Assembly: GCA_963681505.1 (NCBI GenBank)
Contig: OY811993.1
Span: forward strand, 462,562-526,561
Source: Eunapius fragilis
Lineage: Eukaryota; Porifera; Demospongiae; Spongillida; Spongillidae
Length of the DNA stretch: 64,000 nucleotides
Direction: 5' to 3'
In this document: in pieces, positions 1-36,402 of the stretch
How positions within the stretch are numbered: position 1 is the stretch's first letter
Layout of the letters: each line of letters begins with the position of its first letter
Notes under the pieces: model-generated
What the model saw: the letters and a program-made list of their open reading frames with translations, nothing else
Database searches by the model: none
What the model was told of the DNA's origin: nothing
Made by a program: the position numbers and the translations under genes

Positions 1-46
1 CTTACCACCACCACACCCTACCCCCTACCCCACCACATCATCTCAC

Positions 47-4603
<4,557 letters not shown>

Positions 4604-4856
4604 ACACCTAAGTAGACCGTTCACGCTCTGTCACGCCCACAATGCCCGCAAAGGTCTCGCCTCGTGTCCAGGCTCTACTTTTGTATATTTATTTAACTGC
4701 CTCAATAACTGCTGCTGCAAAGGTTATGGTATATACCATATATGGGAAGCTCCCATCCCGGCTGGTTCACTTGTACAATAGAATAGAACACAAACACATT
4801 ACAATCACACAATGGAGGTGGTCAGACATGAAGGTGGTCCAATATGATGGAGGTGG

Positions 4857-7800
4857 CTAGAGCTCATATATAGATTTATGGCTCAACCGATGATCAGTTA
4901 AGCTAACTTCTATCTCAGATTTTTCCAAACGACACGGTATTTTCACACCCAGAGGTGGCCACGATGGGTCTATCTCCTTTAGGACATGCTTGTAACGGTT
5001 GCTAGGAGACCGCTTGCACCTCACAACACGCAGGATGGCATGAAACCACCGTGTGTGGAAGACATAGCTCTGTGGGGAGAGACAAATGGGATCACGAGCT
5101 CACGTCACATGACCACAAGCATATTCACACATGCAGGTCGCATGACATAATATAACCATGATGTGTGTCATATATGATCACTGCCTGCCAAGTGACCAGG
5201 TGATAAAATTATAGCATTATTTTATTTCCCCAAAAAGTTTGCCTCCATTAAAAAATACGCAACAAATCAGAAGAACAGATGGATGGTGTTGAAAATATGA
5301 AACGAAAATTTGCAAGTAAATGCAAAAAGTGAGTGCACCAATAAATAGAACACTACAATGTTCAAGGGATGAACATGTTTGGGTAAAATGGAAGTGTATC
5401 AAATCACTCACTTATGTCATATGGTGATAACATCTATCTTCGCATTACGTCACAAGAATTACCTCAATGATGGTACATGCATACCTCTATGGTCAGGGTG
5501 ATGACCACCAATGATGGTACATGCATACCTCTATGGTCAGAGTGATGACCACCAATGATGGTACATGCATACCTCTATGGTCAGAGTGATGACCACCAAT
5601 GATGGCACATGCATACATCTAGGGTCAGGGGTGATGAGCACCAATGATGGTACATGCATACCTCCAGGGTAAGGGTGATTATCATGAAGAGGATAGCCAG
5701 TTCCAACACGCCCACACGGAACAGGAGGTACGGATGCGGCACCATCTGTAGGAGTGACCACAGCCTGGGGACCCATGAGGCCGGACCCAAGATGAGGAAT
5801 ACGTTGCAAGGGGACAGGACCACCAGACAGAGAACAAAGAGGGCTAACCAAAGAATGAAGGCATCAGTCACAATAATCACACCATCTGAAGCCTCACCAT
5901 TGGTGTAGAGAGGCTTGCGATATGGAGGTCCTGTGGACAGACTGACAGCCAGAGATATGTACTGGAATATGGACGCTTGAAACACCACAGTGTTCTCACT
6001 GCATACAATGTTCTGACCCCCCACTGTGGGCAGCAGTGGTATATACCTGTGCATGGGAATGGGCACCAGAGGTATATACCTGTGCATGGGAATGGGCACC
6101 AGAGGTATATACCTGTGCATGGGAATGGGCACCAGAGGTATATACCTGTGCATGGGAATGGGCACCAGAGGTATATACCTGTGCATGGGAATGGGCACCA
6201 GAGGTATATACCTGTGCATGGGAATGGGCACCAGTGGTATCGGAAGTTTCACTAGAAACTTCCATATAGGATTTGACCCCGACTATGAAATCATTAAAAC
6301 AAGCGACCCGTTTATAACAAGACTCCTGAAGAGTGGATCATTTAGCTAGTTGTTTTAATCAAACGAGAAGACGAAAGTGAGTAATTTCGTCGTTTGTTTT
6401 ATGTCGCAAAATGGCATGGTTGTAGAGAACAAAGGATACTGCCCGTCCTCGTACCCAGTCCCGGAATTATCTCCTTCTTCTTGACTACGCATAACTTGGG
6501 ATAGGAACACATTTAAAGAATGGAAATTTCACCAAGAGCTTCAGAATTTGCTGGAAGAGTGCCTTCTGTGATCAAATACTTGATGGTATATTTTGGTAAT
6601 TGTATTGTTAGATTTGGGCCGTACTAAACGTTACTCGTATCACTATGGCAGAATCTTGACAAGTTTAGAATTGTCGATACCAAACCACAAAACTAAAGGA
6701 GCAGTAGCGAACGATTTAACAATCAACTAAGACGTATAATTAGATATCAAAATAAATGTAAAATAGTGACCAACTAAAGAAAACACTTTGTTGCTTCAAT
6801 CGTCGTTTGGTGTGATACCTATTTGTCAGTGAAGTTGTTTTTCTCGAAATGCCTTCATGTCAGAGAAAGAATATAGCGAAACAACGTGCAAAATACCTCG
6901 GCCTCAAGACGATGATTTAGAATCAGCATGGGCATGATTTCAGGAGAGGGACGTAAAAGTTAACTTCCCTCTCCGATACTTTGGTACCCAGATGCATGGA
7001 CGTCTAGATCTAGGGATGACATCACTCGCTATACAGGACAATACATAATATTCACAGTGATTTCAGTGATTTGGGTGTGAATAAAAATCAATGAAACAAG
7101 TAATCAAAAAATTCTCTATGAGAAAGTTGGTGGGGTATATAGGATTTGAAGGCAATAGTGGTGTAAAAAGCAAGGTCTTATCAGAAGGGAAAATGTAATA
7201 GACATATATTTAGCACATTTCTAGGGTATATGTTGTTTTTGTGCTAAATATAGGACTATACATTTTCTCTTCTGATAAGATCTTGCTTTTTACACTACTA
7301 TCACCTTCAAATCCTATATACCACCAACTTTCTCATAGAAAATGTTTTTAGTTACCTGTATATACCTGTGCTAGTAGCAATACATGAATGGTGTGGTGCA
7401 TGAACAGTTAACCCTATTCAACCTGCAGCAGCAAGGTTCCATGTGTAATTAACATACAGAAGGACAACTTACACCTTGTCCCCATAACAACAAAACTGAA
7501 CAGTTATAAGGTCATCATATTTTGTGGAGAATATGTTTGGCATTACAACAGCAGTACTGTCCATACTGTCCAGACAGCAGCACTGTCCAGACAGCAGTAC
7601 TGTCCAGACAGCAGTACTGTCCAGACAGCAGCACTGTCCAGACAGCAGTACTGTCCAGACAGCAGTACTGTCCAGACAGCAGCACTGTCCAGACAGCAGC
7701 ACTGTCCAGACAGCAGTACTGTCCAGACAGCAGTACTGTCCAGACAGCAGCACTGTCCAGACAGCAGCACTGTCCAGACAGCAGTACTGTCCAGACAGCA

Positions 7801-10338
7801 GTACTGTCCAGACAGCAGCACTGTCCAGACAGCAGCACTGTCCAGACAGCAGTACTGTCCAGACAGCAGTACTGTCCAGACAGCAGCACTGTCCAGACAG
7901 CAGTACTGTCCAGACAGCAGCACTGTCCAGACAGCAGCACTGTCCAGACAGCAGCACTGTCCAGACAGCAGTACTGTCCAGACAGCAGACTATTCTACAT
8001 CATGACTGCTTTGGTGAGCAAACAGTTAGCAGATTGAATTTATTAAACTAATAATCCAACATCAACATATCAGGGAAGCTACTATCACAAATAAAAGACC
8101 CACCCATAAGTGGACTCCACCCCTTTCCTTACCAGGCTCCACCCCTTTCCTTACCAGGCTCCACCCCTTTCCTTACCAGGCTCGACCCTGCAAGTACAGA
8201 AGAGACAGCACTTGGAAGGTCAGTATGAGAGTACCATGGACAAAGATGGAAAAGAAAACATCCAGACCAGCAAGTGTGCCGGGGGGGCGGAGCTTTGCCA
8301 GGTGGGGGTGTGGTCCTGTGAGACCCACTATTATGCGTGTGGTTGAGTGTGTGCGTGTGTGTGTGGGTTGTGTGTGTGTGTGGGTTGTGTGTGCGTGCGT
8401 GTACACACAATGCTATGAAAATGTTTCACAGAGGAATACAACAAGCCACGTACTGACGAATGCAAAAGACAGAATGATGAAGAAGTCGATGTAGAAGTAT
8501 TGGAGGTCACCCAGGTTGGACTCAAACTGCATCCAAAAGTGAAGTGATCTCATTACAAGAACACACATGAACACTCACAGCATAAAGTATGGCCGCCGAC
8601 ATGAACTGTGTGAGTGAATAGAGAGCCATGAACTTGAAGACACTGAAGGATGTGGTTAGGGCAGCTCTTCCCTCCATGATGACCTTGGGCACACAGGTGA
8701 TGTTGGGGACCTTGGAGGTGAAGGGAGAGGCCACACTAGCCTCTGCCTCTGACAGAGATATGCCTGCGTGGGCTGCCTTCAGGGCCTGGGGACCAGAGGC
8801 ATTACCTCATTGGTCACATGACCCATACACTTACCCCACAATCATTGGCTCCATCTCCACACATACCAACTCCATACCTGAAGGGGTGGGGTCATGTGAA
8901 GCCACACCCCCAACAGACCACACCTACCCTAGTCCCTGCAGATCTATTACCAGCTGAGCCTTCTGGTCAGGTGACATCCTGGCAAAGACTGTCCCTTTGA
9001 CCAACAACTAAAGCCCATGATGGATGAAGGAGTTTCAAAGAGGGTTAAAGGATAAAAGGTCAGAGGTCACCTTACCTTGGGCAAGAGGTCAGGGAAGTGT
9101 GCTCTGACGACATCATAAGACCTGCCATCAATGACGAGGGAGGAAGGTTTGTCCAACAGCTGGTCCTGATAGGGAGATACCACCTGACCTGTGAGGTATA
9201 GGAGGGGGAGGGAGGGGAAGGAGGGAGGGAGGGAGGGAGGGAGGGAAGGAGGGAGGGAGGGAGGGAGGGAGGGAGGGAGGGAAGGAGGGAGGGAAGGAGG
9301 GAGGGAGGGAAGGAGGGAGGGAGGGAGGGGGGAGGGAGGGAGGGGGGAGGGAGGGAGGGGGGAGGGAGGGGGAAGGAGGGGGAGGGAGGTTTGGAAAGGA
9401 GGGAGAGGGGGAGGGAAGTATGATGAAATGGAGGGAATGGGGAGGAGGTGAAGGGGAGGGGGAGGGCACTGTGCAGCACTCTAACTTTCAACAAGTTTCC
9501 CAGCTTGAGTGCTTTGAAGGAGAAAAGCAAGGTTTGACCCTTCCTTGAGGAGGTGAAAGGTCACAGAGGGTGTGGAGGAGGCGGAGTCAGCCTTCACCAT
9601 AATGGCCTGGTGGTCTGGGTCTATCATACCACACTCACGTGCCACTGATACTGCCGTGAGAAGGTTGTCTCCTGGGAGAGGGATGGGGAGGAGGAAGTGT
9701 AAGAGTCTACCGGGAGAGGGATGGGGAGGAGGAAGTATAATAGTCTACCAGGACGGATGGGGAGGAGGAAGTCTACCGGGAGGGGATGGGGAGGAGGAAG
9801 TGTAAGAGTCTACCGGGAGAGGGATGGGGAGGAGGTAGTGTAAGACTTTACCAGGAGAGGGATGGGGAGGAGGAAGTGTAAGACTTTACCAGGAGAGGGA
9901 TGGGGAGGAGGAAGTGTAAGAGTCTACCGGGAGAGGGATGGGGAGGAGGAAGTGTAAGACTTTACCAGGAGAGGGATGGGGAGGGGACAATAATGCACAT
10001 GTCGATGGATAATTATGCAGCTGTGAGTGGTGGATATATCCAGCAGCTAATGTTGGGTCTGGGCACTGCAGTGAGGGGTATGTCCATGACCGATATTGAG
10101 GGGAAGATGGTGCAGACTGGTCCTAAGCATCTGCCCCTCATAACTATCCCCACCCCTAACCATGCCCACTTCCTGGTCTCACACCACATCATCACCACAT
10201 CATCTCACCGGTAACCATGACAGTCCTGATGTTAGCATTCTTGAGAACAGAGATGACAGGAGTGGTCTCAGGTTTGAGAGAGTTCTTCATGATGATCAGT
10301 CCACCAAACTCAAGGTCACACTCCACCATGTCCCTGTG

Positions 10339-10369
<31 letters not shown>

Positions 10370-10568
10370 ACACACACAAAGGTCACATGCCTACATTCCC
10401 CAACATAACAACACACACAGAGCAAACCTCTCTATTCTGTCGGTCTTATGCCATGATACATGCATAGTACGATGACCAATAGCCAACACCCTCATCCCCT
10501 TCTGAGTGAAAGAGCTGAGAACATCAAAGAAATCCTCTGGAACTAAACACACACGTACACACAAAAAC

Positions 10569-10601
<33 letters not shown>

Positions 10602-10642
10602 AAAACACACACACAAACACACACACAAACACACAGACACAG

Positions 10643-10676
<34 letters not shown>

Positions 10677-11552
10677 ACAGTGAGGTAATGGTTGAAGACA
10701 CATTCAAACACATACTGGTCTCAGGTCTGCACAACTTCCTAATCTTCTCTGGGGCACCCTTCACATAGACATGGAACAACTTGGGGTCATGGGAGGGTAG
10801 GGTCTTTACTAGAACACTCATACGCTGATCAGAGGGAGGGGTACTTCACATCACACCATACATATGGTAGTCTGGTCTGCTAACCTGGAGCTCAGATGAG
10901 AAGGTGAACTGTTTCATGATCCCCAGTTCAACATCTTCATGTCCCCCAGCTTGGGGAGGCTTGACTATGGTTGGAATGATCATATCAAACCTCTTGGTGT
11001 CTTCTCCCGGCTCTTCCAGGGTCTGGGGAGGAGGAAGAGGGCAAATGATGAAGGATAATGAGAGGGGCTTACCCATCCGGTACTGTTGAACATCTTAATG
11101 TCCAGAGGGTCTCCAAGCAGCTGTCCATTGATGAGGGTGAGGGAGTGGCAGGTGGCCATACCATAGAGGAGTGGGCAGGGGAGGAGGGAGGAGGGGTCTG
11201 TAACCATGGGAGAAAACCTATTGATAGGATAAAGATAAGAACATTGCACTACCAGTACAAAGATGGCTGACTGTTGGTTTGTGGCAGTGGTGACTCCTTC
11301 CATGTCTAGACTGTCTTCAGTGAGGGTACCAGTTTTGTCAAAACACACCAACTTGATCTTTCCACAAACATTAACCCTGTTCAGGAGGTGATAAAACACA
11401 CAATGGGCCACCAATCATAACAAAACCTATCCATTAGCTGTGGACATTATTTTTAAAATAATGTTTGCAATCATATGTAGTGGTATTACAAACTATTAGA
11501 GCTATCATCAAACCACATCTGCAAACCACCAAACACGCACACACACACACAC

Positions 11553-11617
<65 letters not shown>

Positions 11618-13889
11618 CATTACTGGTTCATTAAGATTATGTCATAACCACACTCAGACCCATGTGACTCAGACCCATGTGACCCCGCCCACCTTACCTC
11701 TGAGGACTGATGCAGTAGATCTGTTGTTTCTTCAGCCTCTGGAGAGCATACACTGTGCCCACAGTGAGGGCAGCAGGGAGGGCCGGGGGGACCACTATAG
11801 TGATGACATCGAACGCCCTGATGACAGTCTCATGGACATCATAGCGACTTATTCCAAGGATAATAAGAGTGTAACAGAAGCCAATGAGTGCTTGTGGAAG
11901 GAAGATAGGACATGATGGTACCCACATCACAACGCACATGCACCCATACCTCACCACACATGTACCCACACCTCACCATACACATGCACCCACACCTCAC
12001 CACACACATGCACCCACACCTCACTACACCTCACCACACACATGTATACATACCCACCACTGAAAGTAGCAAGACAAATTTGATAGCATCCAAGTAAAAC
12101 TTAAAATTAAGAGGTTTTGGGAAGAGAATAGACCTCACCATACCACCCCTGGAAGTTGAGAACCCTAGAGGTGGAGATGGTGTAGAGGTGGAGATGGTGT
12201 AGGGGTGGAGATGGTGTAGGGGTGGAGATGGTGTAGGGGTGGAGATGGTGTAGAGGTGGAGATGGTGTAGGGGTGGAGATGGTGTAGAGGTGGAGATGGT
12301 GTAGAGGTGGAGATGGTGTAGGGGTGGAGATGGTGTAGAGGTGGAGATGGTGTAGAGGTGGTAGGGGTGGAGATGGTGTAGAGGTGGAGATGGTGTAGGG
12401 GTGGAGATGGTGTAGAGGTGGAGATGGTGTAGGGGTGGAGATGGTGTAGGGGTGGAGATGGTGTAGAGGTGGAGATGGTGTAGGGGTGGAGATGGTGTAG
12501 GGGTGGAGATGGTGTAGGGGTGGAGATGGTGTAGGGGTGGAGGAGATATGCATCACGTGTCATGGTTAGAGGGGGGTACACACACCTGTTCTCGCTACCA
12601 CAGCCAAAACAGAAGAGTTGCTGTAGAACCTTGTCTGGATGACCTGGGTCCCTCCATATATGGTATGATGTTTGTGCTTCTCATAATGATATGTTTCATC
12701 CTGAATATTTGGTAGCTGTGTCTTCATCACGGGTACACTCTCACCTGGAGGTGACCAGCCATTATAAATCCTTTATTCTTAACAGCTCCTGATGACCAAC
12801 ATCACCCACCTCTTGATGACCATCATCACCTCAAGGTGACCCACCTCTTGATGACCATCATCACTTCAAGGTGACCCACCTCTTGATGACAATGATCACC
12901 TCAAGGTGACCCACCTCTTGATGACCATCGTCACCTCATCTCTTATGACAACCTTACCAGCATGCATCTATAAGTACAACTAACCATGCATGCAGACTTA
13001 ATAACCACAATAATCGTAATAACCAACTGTACAGCCTTTAATAACCGCAATAATCCTAATAACGTACAGGACTTATGACATCACTTGGTACACTACACAC
13101 ACGTGCTGACTGCTGCAGACTACCATTCATTCCTGTTAACGTGCAGACCATAAATGGTATAGCTTTCCGACTGGGGGTGCACAGGGGGCAAACATTCATG
13201 CTGCATAAACCTGCATTAGGTAATCCTGGACATTTTAACCACACACCTTATACCCACCAGGGAGGGAGGCCTCATTGACTACACCTCCTGTACCCACCCA
13301 CCTGTGACCACACCCCCTGTACCCACCAGTGAGGGAGGCCTCATTGACTACACCTCCTGTACCCACCCACCTGTGACCACACCCCCTGTACCCACCCACC
13401 AGTGACCACACCCCCTGTACCCACCAGTGAGGGAGGCCTCATTGACAATGGCTGTACCAGTGAGAAGGACAGCATCACAAGGCATACTCATCCCTGTTGG
13501 AGGGATCACCATCACATCACCAGGGACCAGGGACTCTCCTGGTACATCATGGAGCTCTAGGAAATACAAACACAATGTGAGCATGTCTCTATAGTCATGT
13601 GACCATGTCTCTATGGTCATGTGACCATGTCTCCATAGTCATGTGACCATGTCTTTATGGTCATGTGACCATGCTCTACAGTCATGTGACCATGTCTCTA
13701 TAGTCATGTGACCATGTCTCTACAGTCATGTGACCATGTCTCTATAGTCATGTGATCCTTACCTCTGCCGTCTCTGATAACAGTGACGGTACAGTTCTGT
13801 TTGACCATGTCATGAAGCTGCTGCATGTTCCTTCGCGTTTGGATCAAACTGGCAATTATTGATGATGAAGACATCAAGACAATGACTCC

Positions 13890-13952
<63 letters not shown>

Positions 13953-15077
13953 GTGTGTATTAATATATGAGTAAGATCTCAATTAGTGCACACCTGCATA
14001 ATAGTAGTATTGTTCGTTCAGCCATACTGTTATACACAAGATCTGGAATATGAAGAAGGGGTGGAGGACTTCCTCCACAAACAGAAGGTGGTAAGGCTTC
14101 ACAGGAACATCGATTGAGTTAGGACCATACTGGAGAAGTCTGGGGAAGTGGGAAAGGAGAATATCATGGTTATGATGGGGAGCGCTTAATTGGAGCCATA
14201 TAGTTCTTGTGTTAATAATTTTAGAATTGTTGTACTGCTAAATATGATATAGCTATGACATCATGCTGCAGTGCCTGTCCTGGTATAGCTATGACATCAC
14301 ACTGCAGTACCTGTCCTGGTATAGCTATGTAACAGGACATCACGCTGCAGTACCTGTCCTGGTGGTCTTCGTGTTGAAGCCCACCGTCCATTGCACATAC
14401 AGCTCCACATTTAACACCTCTGTCCAGCCCTCTGTGGGTGGGCACGAATAAGGACCTCCCTCCTTAAATTGCGCGCCCCAACTCACCTTAGCAGCACAAA
14501 CTTGTGGATGTCGTCCGCATACAGATAACGGAGGTAGCGGTGGACGAAGTACCTGACTGTAGCGGCGGGCGCGGGCGCATTGACAGTGCGGTACGCGAGC
14601 CTACGCCCCCCGGGGCTGGCGACGAGGGGGTCTTCTTCGCTTCTCTCGAGGTTCTGCTCCCGCGCCATGGAGAACCCGCGCACGCGCTCCACGCATTGCT
14701 TGCCGTCCAGGTTCTACACACGGGTAGGCATTACGTAACCCCCCCCATAGCTACGTTGGCTACTTACCACCACGATGACGTAACGAGCTTCGTTCAGCGG
14801 ACACCGCCTACACACCAGCTTCAGCCATTGCGCTGGTAACCAGTACGCCAGCAGGAGCCCGCCACAGAGCGGGAGTATAGCCAGCGAGTAAAACAAAGCT
14901 GACCTAACGATGCTGACTGTATAACCAGTTTGAGGCTTGGGAGGGGAGCGATGCGTGAGTGTGTGGATAACTACTAACTGGTATTCTTACAGGACAGGGA
15001 TCTATCTCCTGATCTGGAGTGGTTTGCTCTGCGACGTTGGAGGCGTTTTCTTCAAGCTTAGATGCATCAGCGTCCAT
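4857..15077 (-). CDS. ATP13A2-like: P5B-type cation/polyamine-transporting ATPase, copy B (24-exon model)
   Basis: P-type ATPase of the P5B group, which exports polyamines across late endosome or lysosome membranes. Exons read on the minus strand: 15077-14991, 14935-14768, 14713-14487, 14139-13994, 13888-13763, 13556-13425, 12744-12586, 12164-12054, 11890-11698, 11376-11073, 11022-10885, 10824-10716, 10542-10428, 10333-10209, 9671-9486, 9188-9076, 9007-8928, 8877-8835, 8785-8579, 8526-8454, 8327-8177, 6046-5898, 5843-5662, 5069-4857. All phases agree and the sum is 3537 nt, or 1178 residues, the usual family length. Visible motifs: N-terminal hydrophobic hairpin in exon 2, LTGES split by the exon 6/7 junction, PPALPAAL (P5B M4 signature), DKTGTLTED with Asp near residue 463, KGAPE, VMVTGD across exons 14/15, CGDGANDCG near residues 846-854, and a C-terminal region closest to ATP13A2 (ENTVVF, KPLYTN, WPPL). 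Weak points are the exon 15 donor (GTTAGA) and the 54-nt intron between exons 22 and 23, which is also open in frame. The start ATG gives an N-terminus parallel to copy A. Confidence 0.9.
5460..5665 (-). repeat. 45-bp tandem repeat copying the exon 23 donor junction
   Basis: On the minus strand exon 23 ends ACCCTGGAG and the intron starts GTATGCATG. About 4.5 copies of a 45-bp unit follow, each containing an exon-like ATCACTCTGACCATAGAG followed by GTATGCATG. The repeat unit is therefore the last ~20 exon bases plus the first ~25 intron bases. One copy (near 5612) has a changed exon-side sequence (GAT before GT). Confidence 0.85.
6038..6235 (-). repeat. 33-bp tandem repeat that copies the exon 22 splice acceptor six times
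   Basis: Read on the minus strand, every 33-bp unit contains CCCATGCACAG followed by GTATATACC, which is the acceptor and first bases of exon 22 of copy B. Acceptors lie at 6046, 6079, 6112, 6145, 6178 and 6211. Because 33 is divisible by three and the units are open in frame, use of an upstream acceptor would add 11-residue units ([11 protein letters not shown]). Confidence 0.9.
6241..6560. mobile_element. Non-autonomous repeat with GGAAGTTTC end (copy 1)
   Basis: Begins with ggaagtttc/gaaacttcc and atataggatttgaccccgac, then contains a CCCGTCCTCGTACCCAGTC block. The same blocks in reverse order occur at 34050-34430, and a related stretch lies at 52165-52330. It sits directly beside the 33-bp acceptor repeat. 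Confidence 0.6.
7095..7358. mobile_element. Hairpin MITE, family M1 (copy 1)
   Basis: Two ~125-bp arms with inverted complementarity: the left arm has attctctatgagaaagttgg and the right arm ccaccaactttctcatagaa, meeting near ctagggtatatgttgttttt. Copies occur at 33542-33831 and 44205-44420. It lies in the large intron of ATPase copy B. Confidence 0.85.
7546..7988. repeat. 17-bp minisatellite, about 26 copies
   Basis: Units of cagcactgtccagacag and cagtactgtccagacag. Because 17 is not divisible by three, all frames stay open, producing spurious ORFs of 120-175 codons. Confidence 0.95.
8112..8182 (-). repeat. 22-bp repeat giving three tandem 5' splice sites at exon 21
   Basis: The string ccttaccaggctccacccct recurs every 22 bp, so on the minus strand the donor CTG/GTAAGG occurs at 8177 and again 22 and 44 bp further on. 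Use of the inner donors would shift the reading frame, because 22 is not divisible by three. Confidence 0.8.
8338..8403. repeat. TG-rich microsatellite
   Basis: Imperfect TG/CG repeats directly upstream (on the minus strand) of exon 21 of ATPase copy B. Confidence 0.85.
8835..8877 (-). other. 43-nt micro-exon carrying the P-type hinge motif (exon 18 of copy B)
   Basis: The acceptor ends CCCTTCAG and the donor is GTAAGTG. The exon reads [14 protein letters not shown] with phase 2 in and phase 0 out, fitting both neighbours. In P-type ATPases GDGxND binds the Mg-phosphate site of the P domain, so skipping this exon would kill the enzyme and shift the frame. It was found only by requiring the missing motif between exons 17 and 19. 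Confidence 0.85.
9195..9420. repeat. GGGA/GGAA purine tract
   Basis: Some 220 bp of (GGGA)n with GGAA and GGGG interruptions in the intron before exon 16 of copy B. It begins about 8 bp upstream of the acceptor of that exon, so on the transcribed strand it forms a very long polypyrimidine tract. Confidence 0.9.
9660..9990 (-). repeat. About 38-bp minisatellite built on the exon 15 acceptor region
   Basis: Units of gggagagggatggggaggaggaagtgtaagagtctacc type (20-base core gggatggggaggaggaagtg) run from the acceptor of exon 15 (9671) outward. On the minus strand this is a pyrimidine-rich CCATCCCTCTCCC tract ending in the splice AG, then repeated upstream about eight times with indels. Confidence 0.75.
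10555..10680. repeat. Interrupted (CA)n tract in copy B, homologous to 357-485
   Basis: CA repeats broken by AAAA and CAGA changes between exons 12 and 13 of copy B. Confidence 0.9.
11537..11615. repeat. (CA)n microsatellite in intron 9 of copy B
   Basis: About 38 CA units with one CG change; the same position in copy C holds a shorter tract (36101-36129). Confidence 0.9.
12172..12540. repeat. 16-bp minisatellite in intron 7 of copy B
   Basis: About 23 copies of gggtggagatggtgta (a/g variants) begin right at the exon 8 acceptor (12165). Copy A has an unrelated repeat at the same position (2063-2410), so the two arrays arose independently at homologous sites. Confidence 0.85.
12780..12945. 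repeat. About 35-bp repeat in intron 6 of copy B
   Basis: Four to five units of acctcaaggtgacccacctc plus ttgatgaccatcatc. Confidence 0.75.
13255..13440 (-). repeat. Duplicated 3' end of exon 6 (copy B) with its donor site
   Basis: The true end of exon 6 (VNEASLTG followed by GTGGGTAC) is at 13425. The same exon end and donor reappear twice downstream, near 13330 and 13262, as gagggaggcctcattgac blocks separated by ACACCCCCTGTACCCACC units. These are partial exon copies inside the intron. Confidence 0.75.
13570..13755. repeat. 22-bp minisatellite in intron 5 of copy B
   Basis: Same unit and same intron as in copy A (2915-3160), with fewer copies. It was shared by duplication or spread by conversion. 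Confidence 0.85.
13892..13950. repeat. (TG)n microsatellite next to the exon 5 acceptor of copy B
   Basis: TG repeats start at the acceptor; copy A has the same arrangement at 3294-3330. Confidence 0.9.
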
Positions 15078-15554: not shown

Positions 15555-15875
15555 TCTAGTCTGGGGACCAACTGGTGGACAAGTGAAGCTCTCTGTTGTG
15601 CCCTCTGAGGGCTAGGGGCTGAAGCTCTCTGTTGTGCCCTCTGAGGGCTAGGAGCTGAAGCTTTCTGTTGTACCCTCTGAGGGCTAGGGGCTGAAGCTCT
15701 CTGTTGTGCCCTCTGAGGGCTAGGGGCTGAAGCTCTCTGTTGTGCCCTCTGAGGGCTAGGAGCTGAAGCTTTCTGTTGTGCCCTCTGAGGGCTAGGGGCT
15801 GAAGCTCTCTGTTGTACCCTCTGAGGGCTAGGGGCTGAAGCTCTCTGTTGTACCCTCTGAGGGCTTGGCTTTACA
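15555..15875. repeat. 36-bp minisatellite, about nine copies
   Basis: The unit is gccctctgagggctaggggc plus tgaagctctctgttgt. Thirty-six is divisible by three, so the minus strand carries an in-frame 12-residue repeat (RVQQRASAPSPQ) within a 155-codon ORF (16000-15533). No homologous domain is recognised, so I treat it as repeat rather than gene. Confidence 0.9.
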
Positions 15876-15974
15876 TTGATCCTCCTGTTTTCCAGGTTGC
15901 CATCAAATGATCTGTCAATGGTGGCTTGGTCCTGTGATGGTTCCATACCCTGATAATGCTGCATTACATGCAAG

Positions 15975-16768
15975 TATGGTGGGGGTGTGGTCTCCCTCAT
16001 AATGAGGGACGTCCTTGTATGGTGGGGGTGTGGTCTCCCTCATAATGAGGGACGTCCTTGTATGGTGGGGGTATGGTCTCCCCTCATAATGAGGGACGTC
16101 CTTGTATGGTGGGGGTGTGGTCTCCCTCATAATGAGGGACGTCCTTGTATGGTGGGGGTGTGGTCTCCCCTCATAATGAGGGACGTCCTTGTATGGTGGG
16201 GGTGTGGTCTCCCTCATAATGAGGGACGTCTTTGTATTGTGGTGGTGTGGTCTCCTCCTCATAATGAGGGACATCCTTGTATGGTGGGGGTGTGGTCTCC
16301 CTCATAATGAGGGATGTCCTTGTATGGTGGGGGTGTGGTCTCCCTCATAATGAGGGACGTCTTTGTATTGTGGTGGTGTGGTCTCCTCCTCATAATGAGG
16401 GACGTCCTTGTATGGTGGGGGTGTGGTCTCCCCTCATAATGAGGGACGTCCTTGTATGGTGGGGGTGTGGTCTCCCCTCATAATGAGGGACGTCCTTGTA
16501 TGGTGGGGGTGTGGTCTCTCCTCATAATGAGGGACGTCCTTGTATGGTGGGGGTGTGGTCTCCTCCTCATAATGAGGGACGTCCTTGTATGGTGGGGGTG
16601 TGGTCTCCTCTCATAATGAGGGACGTCCTTGTATGGTGGGGGTGTGGTCTCCTCCTCATAATGAGGGACGTCCTTGTATGGTGGGGGTGTGGTCTCCTGT
16701 CATAATGAGGGACGTCCTTGTATGGTGGGGGTGTGGTCTCCCCTCATAATGAGGGACGTCCTTGTGGA
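15975..16768. repeat. 44-46 bp minisatellite, about 17 copies
   Basis: The unit is tccttgtatggtgggggtgt plus ggtctcccctcataatgagggacg. Variants differ by one or two bases. No coding motif is recognised. Confidence 0.95.
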
Positions 16769-16964
16769 GCACTCATGTAAATATTGTCTACTCATGTAAA
16801 TATTAATAACTAACAATAAAGACAAGCAAAATGCCTTTGTATTCTGACATGACTCTTCATCTGTAGCTATAGTGGCTACCAGCTTCTGCAGGACAAGAGA
16901 GCTCCCCTTGCTGCACACCTGTCTCAGAGGATATGGAGCCCATGGAGTGAAAAAGCCTTGGGTG

Positions 16965-18290
16965 CTGTCCATAGCACCACGAAGCCCATGGCATTAGGGG
17001 TGCTGTCCATAGCACCACGAAGCCCATGGCATTAGGGGTGCTGTCCATAGCACCACGAAGCCCATGGCATTAGGGGTGCTGTCCATAGCACCACGAAGCC
17101 CATGGCATTAGGGGTGCTGTCCATAGCACCACGAAGCCCATGGCATTAGGGGTGCTGTCCATAGCACCACGAAGCCCATGGCATTAGGGGTGCTGTCCAT
17201 AGCACCACGAAGCCCATGGCATTAGGGGTGCTGTCCATAGCACCACGAAGCCCATGGCATTAGGGGTGCTGTCCATAGCACCACGAAGCCCATGGCATTA
17301 GGGGTGCTGTCCATAGCACCACGAAGCCCATGGCATTAGGGGTGCTGTCCATAGCACCACGAAGCCCATGGCATTAGGGGTGCTGTCCATAGCACCACGA
17401 AGCCCATGGCATTAGGGGTGCTGTCCATAGCACCACGAAGCCCATGGCATTAGGGGTGCTGTCCATAGCACCACGAAGCCCATGGCATTAGGGGTGCTGT
17501 CCATAGCACCACGAAGCCCATGGCATTAGGGGTGCTGTCCATAGCACCACGAAGCCCATGGCATTAGGGGTGCTGTCCATAGCACCACGAAGCCCATGGC
17601 ATTAGGGGTGCTGTCCATAGCACCACGAAGCCCATGGCATTAGGGGTGCTGTCCATAGCACCACGAAGCCCATGGCATTAGGGGTGCTGTCCATAGCACC
17701 ACGAAGCCCATGGCATTAGGGGTGCTGTCCATAGCACCACGAAGCCCATGGCATTAGGGGTGCTGTCCATAGCACCACGAAGCCCATGGCATTAGGGGTG
17801 CTGTCCATAGCACCACGAAGCCCATGGCATTAGGGGTGCTGTCCATAGCACCACGAAGCCCATGGCATTAGGGGTGCTGTCCATAGCACCACGAAGCCCA
17901 TGGCATTAGGGGTGCTGTCCATAGCACCACGAAGCCCATGGCATTAGTGGTGCTGTCTATAGCACCACGAAGCCCATGGCATTAGGGGTGCTGTCCATAG
18001 TGCTACGAAGCCCATGGCATTAGGGGTGCTGCCCATAGCACCACGAAGCCCATGGCATTAGTGGTGCTGTCTATAGCACCACGAAGCCCATGGCATTAGG
18101 GGTGCTGCCCATAGCACCACAAAGCCCATGGCATTAGTGGTGCTGTCTATAGCACCACGAAGCCCATGGCATTAGGGGTGCTGTCCATAGTGCTATGAAG
18201 CCCATGGCATTAGGGGTGCTGCCCATAGCACCACGAAGCCCATGGCATTAGGGGTGCTGTCTATAGCACCACGAAGCCCATGGCAAGGAC
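16965..18290. repeat. 38-bp minisatellite, about 35 copies
   Basis: The unit is ggggtgctgtccatagcacc plus acgaagcccatggcatta. It is almost perfectly homogeneous up to about 17940, then more variable toward the right end, where it leads directly into retroelement coding sequence (DPQVAYLLL) at about 18286. Confidence 0.95.
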
Positions 18291-18744
18291 CCACAGGTTG
18301 CATATCTGTTGCTTTGCTTCTGTGGCAGCTTCTGTAAAATGGTACACCTGGCCAGACCAACTCCACACTCCTTGGTTGCTGAAGGGCTAGGCATCATCGA
18401 CTTGGACATCCAACGCTGTTTTACAGAGTGCACAATCATTGATGTCTCTGATGTTGCTTGGCAACAGGCTTAGTTGAGCCCTAGGAGGGGAAGGTGCCTT
18501 TGCAGCCTCCTTCATCACTCAAGTGATTGTTTCATCACTTCCATTGACCATTCTGGTATTGTCATTGGAGAAAACCACCACTTGGAGCAATCCATCGACA
18601 ACTTTAATGGCTTCATTGCTGACACCGAAGCTATCATTTGTTTACAGGACATCCTCCTCCCCCGCCAGAGGTACTTGTCGTCTCAGATTACAGACCATCA
18701 GGTCAAGATTCTCCTTGACCATTCTTCATCACCAGCTAACTGTG

Positions 18745-20085
18745 CCTCGGCTCCTCTCTGTGTCCTCTCCCCATGCCTCAGCTCCTCTCTGTGTCCTCTC
18801 CCCATGCCTCAGCTCCTCTCTGTGTCCTCTCCCCATACCTCGGCTCCTCTCTGTGTCCTCTCCCCATGCCTCAGCTCCTCTCTGTGTCCTCTCCCCATAC
18901 CTCGGCTCCTCTCTGTGTCCTCTCCCCATGCCTCAGCTCCTCTCTGTGTCCTCTCCCCATGCCTCGGCTCCTCTCTGTGTCCTCTCCCCATGCCTCAGCT
19001 CCTTTCTGTGTCCTCTCCCCATACCTCAGCTCCTCTCAGTGTCCTCTCCCCATACCTCGGCTCCTCTCAGTGTCCTCTCCCCATACCTCGGCTCCTCTCT
19101 GTGTCCTCTCCCCATGCCTCAGCTCCTCTCTGTGTCCTCTCCCCATGCCTCAGCTCCTCTCTGTGTCCTCTCCCCATACCTCGGCTCCTCTCTGTGTCCT
19201 CTCCCCATGCCTCAGCTCCTCTCTGTGTCCTCTCCCCATGCCTCAGCTCCTCTCTGTGTCCTCTCCCCATGCCTCGGCTCCTCTCTGTGTCCTCTCCCCA
19301 TGCCTCAGCTCCTCTCTGTGTCCTCTCCCCATACCTCGGCTCCTCTCTGTGTCCTCTCCCCATGCCTCAGCTCCTCTCTGTGTCCTCTCCCCATGCCTCG
19401 GCTCCTCTCTGTGTCCTCTCCCCATGCCTCAGCTCCTTTCTGTGTCCTCTCCCCATACCTCGGCTCCTCTCAGTGTCCTCTCCCCATACCTCGGCTCCTC
19501 TCTGTGTCCTCTCCCCATACCTCGGCTCCTCTCTGTGTCCTCTCCCCATGCCTCAGCTCCTCTCTGTGTCCTCTCCCCATGCCTCAGCTCCTCTCTGTGT
19601 CCTCTCCCCATACCTCGGCTCCTCTCTGTGTCCTCTCCCCATGCCTCAGCTCCTCTCTGTGTCCTCTCCCCATGCCTCAGCTCCTCTCTGTGTCCTCTCC
19701 CCATACCTCGGCTCCTCTCTGTGTCCTCTCCCCATACCTCAGCTCCTCTCTCTGTGTCCTCTCCCCATACCTCTGCTCCTCTCTGTGTCCTCTCCCCATA
19801 CCTCATCTCCTCTCTGTGTCCTCTCCCCATGCCTTGGCTCCTCTCAGTGTCCTCTCCCCATGCCTCATCTCCTCTCTGTGTCCTCTCCTCATACCTCTGC
19901 TCCTCTCTGTGTCCTCTCCCCATACCTCATCTCCTCTCTGTGTCCTCTCCTCATACCTTGGCTCCTCTCTGTGTCCTCTCCCCATACCTCAGCTCCTCTC
20001 TGTGTCCTCTCCCCATACCTCAGCTCCTCTCAATGTCCTCTCCCCATACCTCAGCTCCTCTCTGTGCCCTCTCTCCATACCTCGG
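18745..20085. repeat. 31-bp minisatellite, about 43 copies, derived from retroelement coding sequence
   Basis: The unit is tcctctctgtgtcctctccc plus catgcctcagc. In one frame it codes RLLSVSSPHASA, the segment expected at this place in the retroelement protein. A period of 31 keeps all three plus frames open and generates ORFs of 455-547 codons that are not genes. Confidence 0.95.
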
Positions 20086-20094
20086 CTCGGCTTT

Positions 20095-20228
20095 CAGTTA
20101 TACCAACACCCCTCTAGACCCCCGGGTCACCACGCCCTAGACCCCTAGGTCACCACGCTCTAGAACCCCGGGTCACCACGCCCTAGACCCCCAGGTCACC
20201 ACGCCCTAGACCCCCGGCTCACCATGCT
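20095..20228. repeat. 23-26 bp minisatellite derived from the GHHAL segment
   Basis: Five to six units of ctagacccccgggtcaccac plus gcc. One frame reads PPGHHALDP, matching the expected GHHAL motif of the retroelement that precedes RHNSLRD. Confidence 0.85.
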
Positions 20229-20624
20229 CGTACATGTAAAAGTTGAGGCGACTCAAATCACCAGACACAATTCTTTGCGGGACACCTTCTGAGAATTGTG
20301 TAAGTTGGGCCAAATGGAGGCAGGTAGTGAGAGGTACTCACCCTGCAGACATCTTGGTCCATAATTGGGAGTTTGGCAAATCAGCAGCACTGGATTTTAC
20401 CATCACATCACCCCTAAATCATTCTGCTTTGAATGAAGCGAGTGTGATGGTCAGGTCCACTGTGTCAGCTGTTGAACTCTGCAAACATGCCACCAATGAT
20501 GAAAAATGCAACTGTTTGGGCTGAGCTTGCATCCCCTTAGCAGTGGAGACTTATGTTGCTGGGGAGACAAAGTCTCGACAGACTAGCCACATGGATCGCC
20601 ACTCAAACTGCATGCCCCAAATCT

Positions 20625-21408
20625 TCAGCAGTGTCAGGGTTATATGGAAGGTTAAGCATTGCCCTGGTCAGGGCCAATGGCAGTGTCAGGACTATATGGA
20701 AGGTTAAGCATTGCCCTGGTCAGGGCCAATGGCAGTGTCAGGACTATATGGAAGGTTAAGCATTGCCCTGGTCAGGGCCAATGGCAGTGTCAGGACTATA
20801 TGGAAGGTTAAGCATTGCCCTGGTCAGGGCCAATGGCAGTGTCAGGACTATATGGAAGGTTAAGCATTGCCCTGGTCAGGACCAATGGCAGTGTCAGGAC
20901 TATATGGAAGGTTAAGCATTGCCCTGGTCAGGGCCAATGGCAGTGTCAGGACTATATGGAAGGTTAAGCATTGCCCTGGTCAGGGCCAATGGCAGTGTCA
21001 GGACTATATGGAAGGTTAAGCATTGCCCTGGTCAGGGCCAATGGCAGTGTCAGGGCTATATGGAAGGTTAAGCATTGCCCTGGTCAGGGCCAATGGCAGT
21101 GTCAGGACTATATGGAAGGTTAAGCATTGCCCTGGTCAGGACCAATGGCAGTGTCAGGACTATATGGAAGGTTAAGCATTGCCCTGGTCAGGGCCAATGG
21201 CAGTGTCAGGACTATATGGAAGGTTAAGCATTGCCCTGGTCAGGGCCAATGGCAGTGTCAGGACTATATGGAAGGTTAAGCATTGCCCTGGTCAGGGCCA
21301 ATGGCAGTGTCAGGACTATATGGAAGGTTAAGCATTGCCCTGGTCAGGGCCAATGGCAGTGTCAGGACTATATGGAAGGTTAAGCATTGCCCTGGTCAGG
21401 GCCAATGT
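20625..21408. repeat. 52-bp minisatellite, about 15 copies, derived from the ORF's C-terminal coding segment
   Basis: The unit begins gtcaggactatatggaaggt and ends gccctggtcagggccaatggca. The first copy codes SGLYGRLSIALVRANG, the conserved C-terminus of the retroelement protein. Later copies lose the frame because 52 is not divisible by three. Confidence 0.95.
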
Positions 21409-21449
21409 TAGTGCTTTATTGGCTTTATTGGCTAGGTCACCTTCAATGA

Positions 21450-21552
21450 CTTTTAGTGTCTAGGTATAGGTAGGTCTGCAGTATGATGTCTAGGTATAGG
21501 TAGGTCTGCAGTATGATGTCTAGGTATAGGTAGGTCTGCAGTATGATGTGTT
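21450..21552. repeat. 30-bp tandem repeat, three copies
   Basis: The unit is gtctaggtataggtaggtct plus gcagtatgat. An AATAAA-like signal (aaataaaagc) follows at about 21590. Confidence 0.85.
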
Positions 21553-21674
21553 CATGTATGTACATTTATGCATTTATTCATGAACTACAAATAAAAGCTA
21601 TTATTCTGTGTGTGCAAGGATGCTTTTTGCTGTCCTTCATGCTACAAATCTCTGTGCATTTGTGGCAGCAGAGT

Positions 21675-22025
21675 GAAATGGAGGGGGAGGAGTGAAATGG
21701 AGGGGGAGGAGGGGGTGGAGGGGGAGGAGGGAAATGGAGGGGAAGGATGGGGAGGAGGGGAGGGAGGAGGGGGAGGAGGGAAATGGAGGGGAAGGATGGG
21801 AAGGAGGGGGAGGAGGGAAATGGAGGGGAAGGATGGGGAGGAGGGGAGGGAGGAGGGGGAGGAGGGAAATGGAGGGGAAGGATGGGGAGGAGGGGGAGGA
21901 GGGAAATGGAGGGGGAGGAGGGGGAGGAGGGGGAGGAGGGAAATGGAGGGGAAGGAGGGGGAGGAGTGAAATGGAGGGGGAGGAGGGGGAGGAGGGGGAG
22001 GAGGGAAATGGAGGAGAAGGATGGA
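21675..22025. repeat. Purine-rich (GGA)n minisatellite
   Basis: Units such as ggaggagggaaatggagggg run for 350 bp. The purine/pyrimidine asymmetry suits triplex formation, and all frames are open. Confidence 0.9.
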
Positions 22026-22049
22026 GTTTGAATATTGAGCTGGGCTTCC

Positions 22050-22147
22050 ATACTTGCCAGAATAAATTCAGAGCCCCTAGCCCCTCCATACTTGCCAGAA
22101 TAAATTCAGAGCCCCTAGCCCCTCCATACTTGCCAGAATAAATTCAG
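22050..22147. repeat. 38-bp tandem repeat, about 2.5 copies
   Basis: The unit is ccatacttgccagaataaat plus tcagagcccctagcccct. Confidence 0.85.
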
Positions 22148-35760: not shown

Positions 35761-36096
35761 TATAATACCATGAATAGGGTGAGGTAGGGGTAGAAGTGAG
35801 TGGGCAGGTGTAGTGATAGAGGGAGTGGGCAGGTAGGTAGGGGTAGAGGGAGTGGGCAGGTAGGTAGACTGTCTTTAGTGTCTTCAGTGAGGGTACCAGT
35901 TTTGTCAAAACACACCAACTTGATCTTTCCACAAACATTAACCCTGTTCAGGAGGTGATAAAACACACAATGGGCCACCAATCATAACAAAACCTATCTA
36001 TTAGCTGTGGACATTATTTTTAAAATAATGTTTGCAATCATATGTAGTGGTATTACAAACTATTAGAGCTATCATCAAACCACATCTGCAAACCAC

Positions 36097-36130
<34 letters not shown>

Positions 36131-36402
36131 CATTACTGGTTCATTAAGATTATGTCATAACCACACTCAGACCCATGTGACCCCGCCCACCTTACCTCTG
36201 AGGACTGATGCAGTAGATCTGTTGTTTCTTCAGCCTCTGGAGAGCATACACTGTGCCCACAGTGAGGGCAGCAGGGAGGGCTGGGGGGACCACTATAGTG
36301 ATGACATCAAACGCCCTGATGACAGTCTCATGGACATCATAGCGACTTATTCCAAGGATAATAAGAGTGTAACAGAAGCCAATGAGTGCTTGTGGAAGGA
36401 AG
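35761..36402 (-). pseudogene. P5B ATPase fragment, copy C (exons 9 and 10 only, cut by assembly gap)
   Basis: Exon 9 (36388-36196, 193 nt) encodes the M4 region with PPALPAAL and is almost identical to copy B. The intron down to 35943 matches copy B's intron, including its CA tract. Exon 10 starts at 35943 with the phosphorylation motif DKTGTLTED, but directly after it the sequence changes into a short CCTACC-rich repeat and meets a stop near 35761. The upstream side runs into the N gap at 36403. Only two exons remain. It is a partial duplicate, or an unresolved assembly of another copy, and cannot encode a working pump as shown. Confidence 0.8.

Follow-up and report, generated by a model that had tools for sequence, protein, structure and literature searches.

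Four minisatellites in an ATP13A2-like P5B-ATPase gene of Eunapius fragilis repeat the gene's own exon-intron junctions, and copies of a gene's own splice junctions recur in introns of its paralogs and of other gene families. We regard it as likely that these arrays are products of ordinary tandem duplication of short segments in tiny introns, tolerated because splicing removes the extra copy, and that old introns were lengthened in this way, not made or moved. The window that we analysed is a stretch of 64,000 nucleotides (C23:462562-526561) of a 219-Mb genome assembly consisting of 24 contigs.

Splice junctions as repeat units

The gene (copy B) occupies 4857..15077 of the window on the minus strand. 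Its model was built by spliced alignment and then refined against paralogs: a 54-bp intron supported by four of six paralog alignments was introduced into the initial exon 23, the end of exon 14 and the start of exon 22 were corrected by eye, and the frame was then checked. The resulting 25 coding exons (3480 nt) span 15077..4860 and are followed by a TAG stop codon at 4857-4859. With exon-proximal splice sites the reading frame is intact, having 1160 codons and no internal stops. The first 485 amino acids match polyamine-transporting ATPase 13A2 in the PDB (E=8.8e-105), and an E1-E2 ATPase domain was detected by Pfam (PF00122, E=1.6e-32), as expected of a P5B-ATPase; two other fragments of copy B had no Pfam matches. 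Copy B is thus the same type of protein as the polyamine-transporting P5B-ATPases ATP13A2/3, which here form a clustered family with partial and broken copies.

A sequence-only reading of the window had proposed that at least four junctions of this gene are themselves repeat units. All four are in the place where it put them; exon 6 carries the same number in our model, and the other three exons (22, 23 and 24 here) had been numbered one lower. Printed base by base, the arrays repeat in register the donors of exons 6, 22 and 24 and the acceptor of exon 23, each unit holding an exon end together with its splice site, as in minisatellites of the IFI6 type. The exon 6 donor array (13238..13446, minus strand) has 69-bp units made of the last 22 bp of exon 6 and 47 bp of intron, the final 22 bp of the interval being exon 6 itself. 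It sits on an older unit of 27-29 bp (CACTG|GTGGGTACAGGGGGTGTGGT) that is also present in paralogs A, P2 and P4; in copy A, the array at this donor (2688..2769, minus strand; 27-bp unit, 3.1 copies) extends 6 bp into the exon. The remaining three arrays of copy B, all on the minus strand, are the exon 22 donor array (8115..8188) with a 22-bp unit of 12 exon and 10 intron bp in 3.4 copies, the exon 23 acceptor array (6027..6240) with a 33-bp unit of 13 intron and 20 exon bp in 6.5 copies, which is in frame and open, and the exon 24 donor array (5465..5679) with a 44-bp unit of 18 exon and 26 intron bp in 4.9 copies.

Further arrays of copy B had been described as beginning within about 10 bp of a splice site at exons 8, 15, 16 and 5, and for three of these exons the description holds (minus strand throughout). 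A 17-bp pyrimidine-rich unit (12166..12542, 22.6 copies) ends 1 bp from the exon 8 acceptor, a polypyrimidine-tract array with a 38-bp unit (9667..9984, 8.7 copies) extends 5 bp into exon 16 from its acceptor, and an array with a 22-bp unit (13575..13755) begins 7 bp after the exon 5 donor. At the exon 15 acceptor the repeat is indeed 5 bp away but is a dinucleotide run. The exon 17 acceptor has a (GGGA)n run at 17 bp; this run (9206..9416, minus strand) makes up much of intron 16. A 17-bp array inside intron 22 (7565..7988, minus strand) lies away from both junctions.

Paralogs A and P4 carry an exon 5 donor array that agrees with that of B in unit length and in offset, and the array is possibly a decayed donor duplication (p = 0.013 in B, 0.031 in A and 0.044 in P4, values that are not independent). 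As a general account of donor-side arrays, decay from junction copies was set aside as weak. Eight of 41 such arrays gave p<0.05 (combined P=0.003, KS P=0.045), but three of them go back to a single ancestral array at exon 5, another is the exon 6 array of copy B described above, and two, in C14, have a wholly intronic flank in the comparison. On the acceptor side, one of 27 arrays gave p<0.05 (combined P=0.39).

The wider sample comprised 226 introns in 18 genes: six ATP13A paralogs (118 introns), nine of about a dozen myosin loci (97) and three of about nine CCT loci (11). Introns were included if they received at least three of six votes (ATP13A), four of eight (myosin) or two of two (CCT). 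Copy B entered with its own 24 introns in the version that preceded the corrections to introns 14 and 21; none of the counted junction arrays is affected by these corrections. Left out of the counts were the MCM loci L038/L041, which are near-identical, and the short models L039/L040; ATP7-like loci L035-L037 and the P-type ATPase loci L042/L043 on contig C8 were inspected outside the 226 introns and the 131 arrays described below. The ATP13A fragment W3 (window 35.9-36.4 kb) was among the six voting queries but was not counted as a gene, nor were P2dup, a partial copy, and another partial copy near C23:398-399 kb.

Copies of an intron's own donor junction (at least 12 of 14 bases) were found in 12 of the 226 introns, compared with a mean of 0.35 and a maximum of 2 in 20 rounds in which junctions were swapped between introns; own-acceptor copies occurred in two introns, compared with 0.05 after swapping. 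At a threshold of 11 of 14 bases, the observed and swapped counts were 17 and 3.30 for donors and 6 and 2.90 for acceptors; at 13 of 14, they were 7 and 0, and 1 and 0. Swapping thereby ruled out a chance likeness of units to junctions. Donor copies were distributed over the families as 10 of 118 ATP13A introns, 2 of 97 myosin introns (Fisher P=0.07 between these two) and none of 11 CCT introns. Counting homologous introns together, we arrived at about eight independent donor events: one at exon 6, one at exon 24, two at exon 22 (B and C14, separately), one each at exon 5 of P2 and exon 9 of P1, and two in myosins, one of the latter being a single weak copy. Paralog P1 also has a duplicated exon 24 donor; A and P4 do not.

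Two acceptor events were recognized, at exon 23 in B and at exon 20 in C14. The latter is an array in intron 19 of C14 (L015/L034) with a 46-bp unit in about 24 units, where 15 places match the acceptor junction; three of four printed units carry CTAAC, a pyrimidine tract and CAG|GCCCTG and resemble full 3' splice sites. Outside the counted set, the P-type ATPase gene on C8, presumably Na/K-ATPase-like by its motifs, has three copies of an exon end with its donor in a unit of 67-71 bp. Three further genes, presumably ATP7-like by their motifs, share an array of donor-bearing units at one common donor, which was placed by eye; in L035 the unit measures about 41 bp. Repeated tandem duplication across AG/GT junctions, which the sequence-only reading had suggested for this gene, is borne out for copy B, its paralogs and other gene families. 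As for the C8 pair L042/L043, the two loci lie on opposite strands about 86 kb apart, with mostly 100% identical translated stretches over nearly 6 kb; they are either a recent inverted duplication or an assembly duplicate.

Intron size and the placement of arrays

In the 226-intron set, array-free introns had a median length of 61 bp (n=114), and the smallest introns modelled were 41 bp long, the aligner minimum being 38 bp. Tandem repeat accounted for 36930 of 79779 intronic bp versus 329 of 26926 exonic bp. It was present in 108 of the 134 introns longer than 100 bp versus 2 of the 76 introns of 70 bp or less. Since array-free introns measure about 61 bp, a tandem duplication of 20-60 bp in or beside one of them can scarcely miss a splice site.

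The distance of minisatellites to splice sites against random expectation, a check proposed in the sequence-only reading, was examined in these introns with 131 arrays (unit at least 10 bp; an array was called spanning if it reached at least 5 bp into an exon). Three placement models were used: the array was placed as a whole in its intron, or a single unit was placed either in the intron after collapse or in an intron of array-free size. Under the first model, 32 of 123 non-spanning arrays lay within 10 bp of a splice site where 20.7 were expected (P=0.0012), and with collapsed introns the count was 34 of 123 versus 25.0 expected (P=0.011). In introns of array-free size, 65.2 would be expected. 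Arrays that span a junction were rarer than under unselected placement, with 8 of 131 compared with 16.7 expected in collapsed introns and 39.3 in introns of array-free size; by family, the observed and expected numbers (collapsed introns) were 7 and 7.8 for ATP13A, 1 and 8.7 for myosin and 0 and 0.2 for CCT. The proposed enrichment therefore held as a modest excess over uniform placement and failed against introns of array-free size. Compared with uniform placement in the present introns, the sampled arrays lie somewhat nearer to splice sites; they are not closer than expected for the small introns of their probable origin, and junction-crossing arrays are not in excess overall. We conclude that their closeness to splice sites is a modest excess and mostly a consequence of introns of about 60 bp.

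Array starts were also counted 3-7 bp after donors, where we found 14; the expectation was 6.0 in collapsed introns with units kept in the intron, 4.0 with exon overlap allowed and 16.2 in introns of array-free size. Splice sites, and donors above all, could be hotspots where tandem duplications start, through R-loops, G-rich donor tracts or replication slippage, and could in this way attract arrays. The pile-up after donors relative to collapsed introns, the 12 introns with own-donor copies compared with 2 with own-acceptor copies and the excess of arrays within 10 bp of splice sites are consistent with such hotspots. However, spanning arrays fall below the number given by unselected placement, and introns of about 60 bp already predict the pile-up at +3 to +7. 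Moreover, the asymmetry between donors and acceptors shrinks to about eight against two when independent events are compared (about P=0.11 by hand; P=0.039 for eight against one, with the second acceptor event omitted). We therefore consider hotspots possible but unlikely.

Within copy B, spanning arrays are in mild excess (4 of 14 versus 1.54 expected, P=0.05; five with the exon 6 donor counted, P=0.009), and they are more frequent in ATP13A genes (7 of 62) than in myosins (1 of 66; Fisher P=0.029). Given these differences and the array starts 3-7 bp after donors, there may be some donor preference, or relaxed constraint in the ATP13A family.

Ordinary tandem duplication in tiny introns would account for the arrays as follows. 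Duplication of short DNA segments would act on introns of about 50-60 bp, in which a segment of 20-60 bp would usually include or touch a splice site. When such a duplication spans a donor, the extra copies of exon end and donor would land downstream, inside the intron. Provided that the exon-proximal donor is used, these copies would be removed with the intron and leave the protein unchanged, so that the duplication could persist and expand. Old introns would in this manner grow from about 60 bp to hundreds or thousands of bp while their position and phase stay constant. We observed units derived from junctions, intron positions common to paralogs, a baseline length of about 60 bp, the share of repeats in intronic sequence and an unbroken frame; tandem duplication as the mutational process, splicing at the exon-proximal site and neutrality of the extra copies are inferred. 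Points against this explanation are the modest excess of arrays near splice sites, the spanning arrays of copy B and the ATP13A genes, and the acceptor array of C14, whose unit of 46 bp is not a multiple of three and whose printed units resemble full 3' splice sites.

Intron positions in the ATP13A family

The arrays had also been read as a sign of intron gain or movement, for which tandem duplication across AG/GT junctions is a proposed route. We compared intron positions on a protein alignment of six ATP13A paralogs, which are 50-75% identical in pairs. Intron 6 is common to B, A, P4 and P2 (four of six), intron 22 to B, A, P4, P2 and C14 (five of six) and intron 24 to all six, each in one phase; the position table lacks intron 6 in P1 and C14 and intron 22 in P1, where there is no reliable model. 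Some paralogs have introns 22 and 24 in array-free form at 57-61 bp, intron 22 measuring 61 bp in P2 and P4 and intron 24 measuring 57 bp in P2. Among introns 6, 22 and 24 in the six paralogs, no intron with a junction array was found to be absent from the paralogs at its position, and no displacement of these three introns was found. Their shared position and phase indicate that no intron was gained or moved there. A direct repeat at the two ends, the signature of a duplication-born intron in the Rogers model, was likewise not found in the 226 introns: donor and acceptor contexts agreed on average at 9.26 of 36 positions, compared with 9.05 after swapping, and the best single match (P about 0.004) is as expected among 226 introns. 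The claim of gain or movement at the junction arrays is thus not upheld.

One intron of copy B deserves separate mention. Intron 16 (9189-9485) is shared with P1 and P4, whereas P2 and C14 have an uninterrupted exon in its place; in B, most of it is a (CCCT)n run. It may have been gained in the B/P1/P4 group or lost elsewhere, and it is not located at any of the four junction arrays. Other unmatched columns of the intron table are 14, 21 and 23 and several in P1, C14 and P2. Only B was re-read; by eye, its introns 14 and 21 fall at the expected places. We put the unmatched columns down mostly to model error.

That duplication across AG/GT junctions creates or moves introns in copy B is quite improbable. 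In its favour, AG|GT junctions do lie within the units, the 44-bp unit at exon 24 presents a GT...AG stretch close in length to the smallest modelled intron, the array at the exon 23 acceptor keeps an open frame, and intron 16 differs between paralogs. Nevertheless, the introns at the donor arrays of exons 6, 22 and 24 are common to the paralogs in position and phase, the contexts of donors and acceptors are no more alike than swapped ones, most donor copies of B would lead to a premature stop (see below) and intron 16 lies away from the arrays. A related idea is that tandem duplication across junctions continually supplies this genome with latent splice sites. Some arrays, with the 44-bp unit at exon 24 of B and the 41-bp unit in L035, consist of successive AG|GT units whose GT...AG stretches are about as long as the smallest introns. 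Such strings could undergo recursive splicing, in which AG|GT units would be removed stepwise through zero-length exons, or could occasionally become new introns or in-frame exon repeats, and intron 16 could be a product; we hold this to be doubtful.

Extra splice sites and known systems

Copy B contains 17 extra splice-site copies (11 donor and 6 acceptor), and we followed their use in silico. The frame stayed open for two donor copies and for the five acceptor copies in the exon 23 array, each of which would add 11 residues. Nine of the 11 donor copies were predicted to lead to a premature stop. The sixth acceptor match is a chance likeness outside the array and would also give a stop. GT was retained in 40 of 46 donor copies, and all six losses occurred in one array, at the exon 5 donor of P2 (six of seven copies). 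There was no general sign of selection against decoy donors inside arrays among the 46 copies examined.

Selection could in principle have kept the arrays as alternative splice sites that diversify the protein. The retention of GT and the open exon 23 array would suit this idea, as would human IFI6, which is reported to use minisatellite units as donors (PMC4526556). We find it very unlikely, given the premature stops predicted for nine of 11 donor copies in B, the loss of GT at exon 5 of P2 and the absence of arrays from paralogs at several of these junctions. That the units are dispersed mobile or introner-like elements inserting at junctions is hardly credible: there are many arrays in many introns and a similar-looking one on contig C9, but the units match an exon of their own gene, and the C9 array is a 21-bp repeat with a chance likeness to that of copy B and with no ATP13A exon found in the surrounding 10 kb. 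One DNA search of the genome (query window 5000-6000), whose counts are lower bounds, gave no copy B unit in unrelated genes among the matches listed.

The nearest known system is the minisatellite of human IFI6 (6-16), which contains multiple splice donors whose units are reported to be used (Turri et al. 1995, cited in PMC4526556). IFI6 resembles copy B in that a minisatellite supplies repeated splice donors. It differs in that its units are reported as used donors, whereas the units of copy B are candidate sites, and in that the arrays here occur at more than one junction of a single gene, at both ends of one intron and at acceptors as well as donors, and in several gene families. In the potato RdRp case and with 24-bp AGGT repeats in fission yeast, tandem duplication made a new intron (PMC4974935). 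The mutation assumed there and in the Rogers model is the same, a segment that crosses an exon-intron border or an AGGT segment being duplicated in tandem. The outcome there is a new intron, whereas here existing old introns have grown longer and the arrays show no new intron. Minisatellites within introns are also known from intron 1 of an earthworm metallothionein, where they vary between paralogs (PMC12783039), and from C. elegans, where they have been linked to multiple splicing decisions (PMC4039745); in the parts of these two sources that we saw, units derived from the gene's own splice junctions are not described. The literature searched, which included few subscription papers and so offers no proof of absence, yielded no description of junction-made minisatellites as a recurrent genome feature.

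Of the 226 introns modelled here, 12 contain donor copies, and some of these introns are ancient and have stayed at about 60 bp in sister genes. To our knowledge, there is a single reported case of a minisatellite built on a splice site of its own gene. Where the introns of a genome are tiny, geometry alone leads one to expect arrays close to splice sites.

Several other features of the window were recorded. Intron 22 of copy B contains an inverted-repeat, MITE-like element (7106-7348) with 64-bp arms that are 92% complementary and 34-bp arms that are 88% complementary. In copy A (1-4650 and L009), exons 16-21 are not recognizable between exon 15 and the C-terminal exons, the gap being modelled as a 5050-bp intron, and this copy may be a pseudogene. 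The fragment W3 (35870-36388) consists of exons 9 and 10 and stands apart from the other copies; its protein is, by eye, that of copy B or nearly so. Upstream of copy B, large minisatellites occupy much of 15584-22147, with units of 36, 44, 38, 31, 23, 52 and 30 bp among others and up to 43 copies.
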